Shown piece after piece: positions 3,789 through 14,695 of a stretch of DNA of 54,205 bases. The stretch's first letter is position 1; the number at the start of each line of letters is the position of its first letter. The stretch covers positions 1 to 54,205 of the forward strand of contig JACRBC010000077.1 of NCBI GenBank assembly GCA_016213245.1, written 5' to 3'. The stretch comes from Candidatus Solibacter usitatus (lineage in GTDB: Bacteria > Acidobacteriota > Terriglobia > Bryobacterales > Bryobacteraceae). The translations under genes and the position numbers were made by a program. The notes beneath the pieces are model-generated. The model was not told where the DNA came from. It did not search any database and was given only the letters and a program-made list of their open reading frames with translations.

Positions 3789-4032
3789 ATTTCGGGTGAG
3801 GAAAGATATCGGGAATGATGTAGGTGTCGCCGGCGATCTGGAAGATGAAGCGCCAATCCTTGCTGACTCTGGCTTGCCAGACATCGTTGGTTTCATCAAC
3901 CTTCTTGGCGCGCAGGGAAGGATATCGCAGGTTTTGGAGCAACAGGAGCGACTGCTTGTCGAAGACTTGCCGGATCTCCTTGGGCGCCCCGCTGTAGCTG
4001 CGGTCGAAGCGCTGGGTGCGGAGGAGCCTCAT
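3787..4032 (-). CDS. RelE/ParE-superfamily toxin (type II toxin-antitoxin)
   Basis: An 81-residue basic protein beginning MRLLRTQRFDRSYSGAPKEI and containing KQSLLLLQNLRYPSLRAKKV and WQARVSKDWRFIFQIAGDTY. The pattern of N-terminal F-D-x-x-Y, the central LRYPSLRAKKV-type basic loop, and the R-V-S/W-R-F-x-F strand is that of RelE/ParE/HigB-like mRNA interferases. The start ATG overlaps the stop of the upstream antitoxin gene by 4 nt (ATGA, 4029-4032), a typical antitoxin-first cassette. The target (ribosome-bound mRNA or gyrase) cannot be decided from sequence alone. Confidence 0.8.
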   Translation of the reverse strand: MRLLRTQRFDRSYSGAPKEIRQVFDKQSLLLLQNLRYPSLRAKKVDETNDVWQARVSKDWRFIFQIAGDTYIIPDIFPHPK

Positions 4033-4373
4033 GCGGCTGGGCGTTTGGGCTCTCTGGCCTTCAGCTTCCTGACTTCGCCGTGCAGTGAGTCGATGAACTC
4101 CTTGTGCGTGTCAAACGGCCCATGGACGCGGCCGTGCTTGACATCATCCAGGGCTGCGGCGATACGCGCATCCACAGCACGGCGTTGCTTTGGCGTGTAC
4201 TCGTCACCGGCGGACGGGAGTTTCGGGAGCAGGGTGATGATCCCACCGGATACTTTCACCTCCAACTGGTCGCCGTTCTTGATGCCAGCCTGGCGCCGGA
4301 CGCTCGGCGAGAAGAGCTGGCGGGTTTTCTCATTGACTGTGATGGTCATGCGTTGCGTCTTCATCTGAAGCAT
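4029..4373 (-). CDS. AbrB/SpoVT-type antitoxin
   Basis: The protein (114 residues from this start) begins MLQMKTQRMTITVNEKTRQ and continues LFSPSVRRQAGIKNGDQLEVKVSGGIITLLPK, a swapped-hairpin AbrB/MazE-like DNA-binding domain in about the first 50 residues. The C-terminal half, with RRAVDARIAAALDDVKHGRVHGPF, should be the toxin-neutralising segment. I chose the ATG at 4373 because a GAGAG lies about 9 nt upstream and the AbrB domain begins here; the frame is open to 4415, and 4364 is another possible start. It probably autoregulates the pair and sits just upstream of the RelE-type toxin. Confidence 0.8.
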   Translation of the reverse strand: MLQMKTQRMTITVNEKTRQLFSPSVRRQAGIKNGDQLEVKVSGGIITLLPKLPSAGDEYTPKQRRAVDARIAAALDDVKHGRVHGPFDTHKEFIDSLHGEVRKLKAREPKRPAA

Positions 4374-12532: not shown

Positions 12533-12844
12533 ATGTCGAGACTGGAAGCGGTAAAGGGGCTGGTGGCGCAGGATCCGGAGAACAGCCGGATCCGGTTCAT
12601 GCTCTGCATGGAGTACTCGAGCGCGGCGGATTGGCGCGCCGCGGTGGCGGAACTGGAGGAATTGCTGGCGCGCGACCCCGGATACATCGCCGCCTACTAC
12701 CAGGCGGGCAGGGCCAGCGAGCAATTGGGCGGCGAAGACGCGGCCAAAGCGTTCTACCGCCGCGGCATCGCGGCGGCCCGAACCGCGGGCGACCGCCACA
12801 CCGAGAGCGAACTGCAGGCCGCGCTCGACGTTCTGGGCGGCTGA
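12533..12844 (+). CDS. Small tetratricopeptide-repeat protein
   Basis: A 103-residue all-helical protein of about two to three TPR units. RIRFMLCMEYSSAADWRAAVAELEELLARDPG has the alternating small/large residue pattern of a TPR, followed by YIAAYYQAGRASEQLGGEDAAKAFYRRGI. No signal peptide, so probably a cytosolic adaptor. It starts 22 nt from the divergent thioesterase and is followed 8 nt later by the MerB-like candidate selenoprotein, with which it is probably co-transcribed. The partner is unknown. Confidence 0.75.
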   Translation: MSRLEAVKGLVAQDPENSRIRFMLCMEYSSAADWRAAVAELEELLARDPGYIAAYYQAGRASEQLGGEDAAKAFYRRGIAAARTAGDRHTESELQAALDVLGG

Positions 12845-12852
12845 GCCCGGTC

Positions 12853-13314
12853 ATGCACACTGCCGGCACGGTGGACGCCGAGCGCCGCCGCATCTTGCGC
12901 GCATTCCTCGAAACCGGCCTCGCGCCGGAGCCCGGCCCACTCTGGCCGGAACTGGCCCGCCAGCGCTGGATCGTGCTCGACGCCGATGGCCGGCGCTGGC
13001 ATGCCAACTGTGCCTGGGACGCACTGGCGGTGGCCGCCATGGTCAGGCGCGAACTCGGCCTGCCCAGCGTGCTTCCGCTGCGCTACGGCAATTCGCGGAC
13101 GCCGCTGGAGATCGAAGCGCCGCGCGAGGGTCCTGTGCGGAAGCAGGCGGTGGTCCACTTCGCCGTCCCGCTCCGCGAGTGGTGGCGCGACATCGCCTTC
13201 ACTTGAAGCGCCATGCTGCTGTTCCGGCCGGAACAGGACGTCGATGAGTGGTGCGCGCGGCGCCTGCTGGAGTCCCTCGGGCTGACGGGCGAGTTCTGGG
13301 CGCTGCCGGACTAG
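12853..13314 (+). CDS. MerB-like (alkylmercury lyase family) protein, candidate selenoprotein with in-frame UGA at 13204-13206
   Basis: Read with UGA as selenocysteine this is a 153-residue protein. The N-terminal part gives [17 protein letters not shown], matching the MerB C-x-x-D catalytic motif (Cys53, Asp56). It then gives [40 protein letters not shown] and a C-terminus [12 protein letters not shown] typical of MerB-like proteins. The UGA falls at position 118, 65 residues after Cys53; in MerB the two catalytic cysteines (96 and 159) are 63 apart. The frame has no other lesion and ends at TAG 13312-13314, sharing CTAG with the convergent gene. A hairpin at 13219-13236 fits a bacterial SECIS. 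Conventional reading stops at 13206 (117 residues). The substrate need not be organomercury; no other mer gene is nearby. Confidence 0.7.
13219..13236 (+). promoter_or_regulatory. Candidate bacterial SECIS hairpin
   Basis: CTGTTCCGGCCGGAACAG is a perfect 18-nt palindrome. As RNA it forms a 7-bp stem (13219-13225 with 13230-13236) and a GGCC apical loop (13226-13229). The loop begins 19 nt after the UGA at 13204-13206. This agrees with the known bacterial SECIS pattern: a short stem, a small loop with G in the first two positions, and about 16-37 nt between UGA and loop. The hairpin lies inside the downstream reading frame, as bacterial SECIS elements do. Confidence 0.6.
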
Positions 13315-14024
13315 TTCAGCTCCGGCGCCACCTGCTCCGGCGTGGTGACGCCCGGCGGCAGTTCCATGACGCGGATGTTGCGGAAGTGGATCAATCCGCC
13401 CTCCGATTCCAGGCAGAAGTAGCCCTTCCTGCGCGTGGAGCGGCTGATGCCGTTCACGAACTTGCCGTTGATCGCCAGCTTGATGACGCCGTCGACGGCG
13501 ACCACGTCGTAGGTGTTCCACTCGCCCTTGCCCTTGCAGCGGTTCTCCACCGACATGCTGCGCTCGCCGCGCGGGTTATCCGGAGTGGTCTTCACTCCGC
13601 CCACGCCCCACACCTCGCCGTGAACGTAGGCGATGGGCGGCGTAACGCCGTCGCGCTTGTGCAGGTTCGGCCAGTCGAGCTCCAGCATCTGGATCTCCAC
13701 GCCGTCCGGCAGCCGGTTGTTGGGGTTGGGCTGGGCGTTGCTCCAGGCGAAGACGCCGGAGTTCCCGCCGGGCTCCATGTGACGCCACTCGATGTGCAGG
13801 ATGAAGTTCTCGTACTGCTTCTCGCTGCGCATGACGCCGATGGGCCGGCCGCTGCAGATCAGCAGGCCGTCGCGGACCGACCAGGTGTCGGGATCGGTGT
13901 TGACGTTGACCCATCCGGAGAGGTCGCGGCCGTTGAACAGGTCGCGATACCCGGGGACGGTCTGGCTGGATGCGGCGAAAGTGAGCAGTCCGGTCAGCAG
14001 CGTGGCGGCCAGGAAGGAGTTCAT
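13311..14024 (-). CDS. Secreted DUF1080 / 3-keto-disaccharide hydrolase-domain protein
   Basis: A 237-residue exported protein (signal peptide [21 protein letters not shown]). It has the DUF1080 hallmarks [68 protein letters not shown], and near the end [21 protein letters not shown] and [12 protein letters not shown]. The fold is a concanavalin-like jelly roll; several members cleave 3-keto-glycosides, while many are uncharacterised. It is convergent with the candidate selenoprotein and shares CTAG as stop. TACCAT ends 8 nt before the ATG, suggesting a very short or absent leader. Confidence 0.85.
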
Positions 14025-14055: not shown

Positions 14056-14544
14056 TTAGAACGGCACGTCGTCGTCGGTCACGCCGGAAGCGCCGAATTC
14101 GGGCTCCTGCGCGGCGGTGGCGGGACGCTGTTCGCGGGGCATGGCCACCGGGCCGCGTGCCGGGCGGGCCTCTTCCCAGCCTTCGCCGGATCCACCGGCG
14201 CCGCCTTCACCGCGGCTGCTCAGCAGGATCAGGTCCTCGGCGACCACTTCGGTGGAGTACTTCTTCACGCCGTCTTTGTCTTCGTAGCTGCGGGTCTGGA
14301 GCCGGCCCTCGATGTAGACCTGCTTGCCCTTGGTCAGGTACTGCGCCAGGTTCTCCTGCCGCCACACCACGACGTTGTGCCAGTCGGTCTCGTCCTTCCA
14401 CTCGCCGGTCTGGGAGTCCTTGATCCGGCGGTTGGTGGCGACGGAGAACTTGGAGACGGCAACGCCGCTGGGGGTGAAGCGGGTTTCAGCATCGCGGCCG
14501 AGATGGCCGATCAGGATCACCTTGTTGACACTACGGTTCGCCAT
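14056..14544 (-). CDS. ssb: Single-stranded DNA-binding protein
   Basis: OB-fold protein binding single-stranded DNA in replication and repair. The 162-residue product starts [20 protein letters not shown], with [38 protein letters not shown], and [21 protein letters not shown] Gly/Pro-rich linker leads to the acidic tip VTDDDVPF that recruits partner proteins. The ATG at 14544 is chosen because it gives the canonical N-terminus; the frame is open to 14616. TACGCT ends 8 nt upstream. Monocistronic as far as visible. Confidence 0.95.
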
Positions 14545-14695
14545 AATCTGGCAGCGTAGCACATCAAAGATTCCCCGGTTGAACCCTGCAGCGAAAAGAC
14601 GGATCATTCGATTCATACGTCAGGCCCCGGCGGGCGCCCCGGTTTCGGTGAGCCGCCGCAGGCTGTAGAATACTGGTCGGGAACGATCCGGGAGC

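Follow-up and report, generated by a model that had tools for sequence, protein, structure and literature searches.

The window, a stretch of 54,205 nucleotides from Candidatus Solibacter usitatus, is one contig (C43) of a 3.83-Mb genome assembly that comprises 153 contigs and is 78.6% complete. A MerB-like gene lies on its forward strand at 12853-13314. The frame has 153 codons and one internal stop only, a TGA at codon 118 (13204-13206, proposed Sec118), and it closes at TAG 13312-13314. The preliminary description of this DNA had named the gene a candidate selenoprotein, citing a Cys53/Asp56 motif, an in-frame UGA 65 residues after the cysteine, and a frame that continued beyond the UGA without another stop and shared CTAG with a convergent gene. 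All of these were present when the frame was read: Cys53 is encoded at 13009-13011, Asp56 at 13018-13020, and the TGA follows 65 codons after Cys53, while CTAG at 13311-13314 is common to the end of the gene and the convergent ORF at 13311-14024. Past the TGA, on the same strand, is an 18-nt SECIS-type hairpin (13219-13236; CTGTTCC-GGCC-GGAACAG) that folds as a 7-bp stem with the loop GGCC. The flanking genes include one at 12533-12844 on the forward strand and one on the other side at 14056-14616 on the reverse strand, which we take from their sequences to be TPR-like and Ssb-like, respectively; tblastn matches to both were present in all 3 genus-mate stretches compared, those of the former beside the gene.

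The gene order around the locus, by names that we presume from sequence, is Hfq, thioesterase, TPR, the MerB-like gene, Ssb, VWFA-like and methyltransferase. This order was kept in 2 genus mates (G181 and G165) as far as the compared stretches extend, and the third (G127, locus L135) had approximately 2.5 kb of extra sequence between the MerB-like gene and Ssb. A DUF1080-like gene that adjoins the gene in the window had no query match in any of the 3 genus-mate stretches. Codon alignment with the same mates (L098, L099, and L100) placed 2 in-frame deletion junctions in the window copy, one of about 21 codons at 12990/12991 and one of about 39 codons at 13263/13264. The shorter gap surrounds a conserved MAxPFSxVxT stretch and the longer one lies near the C-terminus. 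The protein had been described as very compact; its length of 153 residues was correct, but genus-mate proteins have 210 to 214 residues, and the compactness is therefore due to the 2 deletions and is no family trait.

MerB carries Cys96, Asp99, and Cys159 as active-site residues. Profile alignment to MerB paired Cys53 with Cys96 and Asp56 with Asp99. The cysteine was present in all 52 aligned family members and the aspartate in all 44 members with TGA; the same column in the 8 members with TGC held Asp in 2 and Cys in 6. The read-through protein of the window scored 64.2 bits against the Pfam MerB model (PF03243; gathering cut-off, 27), and this model matched 52 of 52 members at E ≤ 0.1. A search of the PDB with a profile of the 52 members returned MerB2 (5c17, E = 4.8e-25) and MerB (3f2g, 5.9e-14; 1s6l, 4.2e-13). 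The Sec column aligned with the cysteine retained in 3f2g, which by its title is a C160S mutant, and thus corresponds to Cys159 of MerB, the second catalytic cysteine, as had been proposed for this gene. Used alone, the window protein found nothing in the PDB sequence search, where the alignment profile succeeded, and matched 0 families in NCBIfam. The MerB cut-offs of NCBIfam (NF009710 and NF033555) were not reached, with no match for the window protein and, for another member, L021, 58.6 bits (cut-off, 193) and 44.5 bits (cut-off, 200).

Structure models pointed to the same fold. The model of a genus mate was of high confidence (pLDDT 96.4, pTM 0.93), and all 11 of its PDB matches at E ≤ 0.001 were MerB or MerB2. 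The window model was weaker (pLDDT 82.7, pTM 0.58); it had no PDB structure match at E ≤ 0.001, and its first 11 matches, at E = 0.056 to 0.46, were MerB or MerB2. The family thus resembles MerB (PDB 3f0o, 3f2g, and 1s6l) and MerB2 (5c17) in fold, in the Cys96 and Asp99 equivalents and in having the Cys159 column, but differs in having a predicted selenocysteine for Cys159, in that the proteins scored did not reach the MerB cut-offs of NCBIfam, and in that mer genes were not found beside it in the ORFs scanned. Many proteins in the alignment of L017 to L096 have a winged-helix-like stretch ahead of the MerB core, which is shortened in the genus of the window. Pfam matches to this N-terminal stretch were weak (sigma-70 region 3 in 10 of 52 members, GntR in 6 of 52).

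We scanned genome contigs for relatives using the read-through protein with Cys in place of Sec, a query with no bias for TGA since it carried Cys at that column. The scan found 86 loci, of which 80 were kept. TGA was the codon at the Sec column in 77 of the 80, and TGC in 3, all of them archaeal (Thermoplasmatota). The 77 TGA loci span at least 11 phyla by our count: Gemmatimonadota (25), Chloroflexota (16), Acidobacteriota (15), Actinomycetota (5), Planctomycetota (3), Eiseniibacteriota, Verrucomicrobiota, Myxococcota, Thermomicrobiota, and Fidelibacterota (2 each), and Pseudomonadota (1), with 2 loci of no stated phylum. In the bacterial family to which the window belongs, 22 of 200 genomes had a match. 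TGA stood at the Sec column in the window copy and in G127, G165, G181, G147, G072, G096, and G035, and TGC in G032, G175, G030, G070, G110, G133, G041, G108, G111, G167, and G146; the other 3 matches were left out as members (G124, short, with TGA; G053, weak; G029, unrelated). All the loci that were kept comprise 85 TGA copies and 16 TGC copies. Within the genus, the gene with the same TGA was present in 3 of the 8 other genomes among the 200, and the remaining 5 searched (G047, G100, G145, G156, and G173) had no match.

The residue before the TGA was Thr in 85 of 85 copies, and the frame after it was closed by a stop codon in every TGA copy except L045, where the contig ends before a stop is reached. 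On a quick tree, the TGA rows required 2 changes and the TGC rows 2, and none of 500 shuffles was as low. Two copies had unusual tails. The tail of L089 after the TGA was unlike the others, and L109, a TGA-type copy from G096, ran for 240 codons beyond the TGA without a stop, into sequence that we presume to be acetyltransferase-like.

A rival account is an ordinary stop codon, with the downstream similarity being a relic or an error, and TGA is indeed the usual stop in the source genome, closing 34 of the 54 window frames that are 300 codons or longer. However, finding TGA at one column in 77 of 80 loci with a query that carried Cys is beyond chance, and the hairpin is conserved beyond coding need, as described below. 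We consider an ordinary stop very improbable: for the family, conservation already argues against it, and for the window copy the matter is one of possible decay, discussed below. Reassignment of the code was rejected, given the same 34 of 54 frames that TGA closes. A sequencing error, with TGA misread from TGC or TGT, was rejected as unlikely because the 3 genus mates carry the identical TGA. Decay downstream of the UGA without the hairpin had been named as a sign against a selenoprotein; the homologues instead continue past the TGA and retain the hairpin.

The hairpin was surveyed in the 85 TGA copies, 78 of which are distinct over 45 nt. The loop lies at a fixed place, 20 to 23 nt past the UGA, and reads GGUC in 73 copies, GUGA in 6, GGGG in 2, GGGC in 2, GGGA in 1, and GGCC in 1, the last being the window copy alone. 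In the well-known bacterial SECIS of Escherichia coli fdhF, a GGUC apical loop stands approximately 20 nt past the UGA, so the family hairpin is alike in both loop and spacing, and the window copy differs in its GGCC. Codon choice within the hairpin was skewed: Ser was TCG in 73 of 73 (0.349 elsewhere in the genes), Arg was CGG in 78 of 85 (background 0.277), and Glu was GAA in 63 of 84 (background 0.353). The mean contiguous stem was 5.84 bp in the 85 TGA copies compared to 1.89 bp in synonymous shuffles; in the 16 TGC (Cys) copies it was 1.31 compared to 1.15 bp.

Tested copy by copy, only 7 of the 85 TGA copies reached p = 0.05. The window copy had p = 0.284, an equally long stem arising in 28% of its synonymous shuffles, which does not exceed chance. 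The evidence from the stem therefore lies in the whole set, since single copies, including that of the window, mostly miss p = 0.05. Covariation was assessed in 79 aligned copies (78 distinct) against 500 shuffles that keep relatedness in. In the 7-bp helix, 90.7% of the cells were paired and 45 were double-change cells, with a covariation score of 0.250; 0 of 500 shuffles reached any of these values. Two weaker counts were the 14 further pair types, reached by 7 of 500 shuffles, and the 4 pairs changed on both sides, reached by 101 of 500. Folding energy of the whole region compared to synonymous shuffles separated the groups weakly, with a mean z of -0.96 for the 85 TGA copies and -0.56 for the 16 TGC copies. 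The position-specific stem test is the informative one, and the hairpin is conserved beyond coding need. The suggestion that the hairpin at 13219-13236 fits the SECIS pattern stands for stem and position, and its conservation in homologues bears it out; taken alone, however, the window hairpin is not beyond chance and its loop is GGCC rather than GGUC.

The source genome contains the machinery for selenocysteine that the preliminary description had proposed to look for. SelA (487.9 bits), selB (354.6 bits), and selD (362.2 bits) all scored above cut-off, and tRNA-Sec scored 78.8 bits (cut-off, 47). The selD gene (L130, at 54283-55188 of contig C129 in the source genome, G000) itself carries a single in-frame TGA, and the hairpin after it has, by eye, GGUC in its loop. 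Across 50 of the 80 scan loci sampled for selA, 2 were TGC archaea, neither of them above cut-off, and 44 of the 48 genomes with TGA loci were above cut-off. The other 4 gave partial matches (G203 and G205) or none (G208 and G217). Nine genomes with G numbers were also tested for selA, and 6 were above cut-off; in G165 the match was partial and lay at the end of a contig, and those in G072 and G096 were weak. Because 183 of the 200 genomes of the bacterial family have tRNA-Sec above cut-off, its co-occurrence with the gene is uninformative within that family. The TGA-bearing metagenome-assembled genomes G147, G072, and G096 had weak tRNA-Sec matches only, which either speaks against the simplest reading or reflects MAG fragmentation.

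Taken together, the Sec machinery, the same-column TGA and the hairpin kept in homologues support the selenoprotein interpretation, and the UGA of the window gene is very probably read as selenocysteine at the catalytic cysteine position of a MerB-like protein. The family as a whole is likely to be a widespread MerB-fold selenoprotein subfamily with a hairpin- and SelB-decoded UGA, and is predicted to function as an organometal lyase or a metal-binding protein.

The window copy itself is a reduced, perhaps eroding, member. Its tree distance from the shared fork was 0.40, compared to 0.27 to 0.30 for the genus mates (summed branches), and its dN/dS to the mates was 0.29 to 0.49, compared to 0.11 to 0.15 among the mates. 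The 6 neighbour genes had values of 0.10 to 0.26 for window to mates and 0.05 to 0.12 among mates, a smaller rise of the same kind, so much of the increase is lineage-wide. Strong relaxation of the window gene was dropped as an explanation for this reason. A real selenoprotein family of which the window copy is a decaying relic, its UGA now mostly read as stop, is a serious possibility to which we give somewhat less than even weight. Its GGCC loop is the only one among 85 copies, and the selD hairpin in the same genome retains GGUC. Moreover, 5 of the 24 columns that hardly vary among 51 relatives fall in the 2 missing segments, and the structure model of the window protein is of low confidence. 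On the other hand, neither deletion shifts the frame, all 7 bp of the stem are preserved, the 19 nearly invariant columns that lie outside the gaps are unaltered, and the rise in dN above that of the neighbours is modest. We lean slightly toward a window copy that still works.

A MerB-like selenoprotein is already known from reviews. In the available part of PMC9312934 (table, section 13), an alkylmercury lyase MerB-like protein is among the predicted selenoproteins, and in that of PMC13188914 the MerB-like predicted selenoprotein is given as SaoL, NF040728, with the motif CU. As far as their available parts extend, these reviews cite the 2008 GOS paper, the 2016 ISME J paper, and Haft and Gwadz 2023. 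A word beginning with MerB is absent from the main texts of the GOS paper (PMC2398784) and the ISME J paper (PMC5029168), and from the available part of the deep-Sep paper (PMC12013277). Section 7 of the GOS paper, in the part available, describes hypothetical families GOS_A to GOS_C with no named domains, and overlap of the present subfamily with one of these is possible.

The window gene could therefore be a plain member of the SaoL family, part of a Sec-assisted organometallic system. SaoL is itself a MerB-like selenoprotein in the table of PMC13188914, as far as that source was available, and the SaoL model matched 47 of 52 members of our family, with a best E-value of 2.4e-18. The scores, however, were far below the cut-off of 140 bits: L021 had 55.9 and L024 had 52.1, all scores listed were 55.9 or less, the E-value of the best member suggests fewer than 80 bits, and the window copy had no match. 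The SaoL cut-off was reached in 0 of 61 family genomes. In addition, Cys precedes Sec in the SaoL motif listed in the available part of PMC13188914, whereas here the residue ahead of the TGA is Thr in all 85 copies, and neighbour scans by Pfam family and ORF clustering found no recurring operon. Plain SaoL membership is thus improbable; the present subfamily has another motif and far lower SaoL scores.

The SaoL model also matched, in G053, a MerB-like gene in which 2 in-frame TGAs occupy the Cys96 and the Cys159 column and which scored 32.2 bits against Pfam MerB (cut-off, 27). A search with this double-TGA gene found a match in 9 of 396 genomes of the window's phylum. Eight of the 11 loci read hold both TGAs (L127, L136 to L141, and L145, from 7 genomes), and 2 partial loci (L142 and L143) have the second; L144 terminates at a TGA that occupies the first group's Sec column, and was taken as of that type. 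With the best hairpin taken per stretch and no shuffle control, the loop past the second TGA was GGUC in 10 of 10, placed as in the first family, and after the first TGA came a hairpin with a stem of 5 bp or more, whose loop was CGUGC in 7 of 8 and 3 nt long in L138. Seven rows of this second group formed one starred branch on the tree. These 8 loci constitute a putative double-selenocysteine group, with Sec at both catalytic Cys positions.

A plasmid of Rubrobacter radiotolerans carries a further relative (L129, 3950-4480), in which an annotated 270-nt merB (3950-4219) ends at the Sec-column TGA. This copy looks frameshifted, with the match resuming in another frame.

Genes near the family were surveyed in 108 ORFs from 29 loci (30 were picked and one gave none), with ORFs predicted from a rough GC-position rule. 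The genes next to the family vary from phylum to phylum, and no Pfam family was found in more than 2 among the 108 ORFs. Metal families, mercury and arsenic ones included, were absent from the 25 commonest of the 121 Pfam families matched, and when neighbour ORFs of 90 codons or more were clustered, no cluster exceeded 10 loci apart from antisense ORFs over the gene itself. MerA was above cut-off in 0 of 4 genomes, in which related reductases scored up to 345.6 of 454.45 bits. Since mer genes were not found nearby, a mercury role is suggested by the fold and residues, through analogy with MerB. In 9 Chloroflexota loci (L049, L052, L056, L057, L060, L063, L065, L066, and L077), the gene lies between genes that are presumably tsf-like and pyrH-like.

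By conservation, SelB would be recruited by the hairpin just past the UGA and would decode the UGA as selenocysteine. The selenocysteine would occupy the place of Cys159 of MerB, facing a Cys96-like thiol (Cys53) and an Asp99-like proton donor (Asp56). In MerB, the cysteine pair grips the metal and the aspartate protonates the carbon that leaves. By analogy, a thiol/selenol pair could hold the metal atom of an organometal compound, of which an organomercurial is the likeliest, and Asp56 would protonate the leaving carbon. Selenium would be expected to tighten mercury binding and to ease release to a cellular thiol. Since no mer genes were found next to it, the gene may encode an organometal lyase or a metal-binding protein that acts on its own, outside any inducible resistance cassette.

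Most predicted prokaryotic selenoproteins are considered redox enzymes in the abstract of PMC9312934. Here, selenocysteine would take the place of a catalytic cysteine that grips the metal, in the fold of a carbon-metal lyase. Such genes can be truncated at the UGA by automatic annotation, as with the merB of the Rubrobacter plasmid. We tentatively suggest, as a reading that has perhaps one chance in three, a Sec-dependent organometal lyase family outside mer and SAO operons and present in many phyla, with a sister group that is all-selenium, which could represent an overlooked sink for methylmercury or a related organometal. The finding raises the testable question of whether selenium aids cleavage of the carbon-mercury bond, and whether these bacteria may degrade methylmercury without a mer operon.
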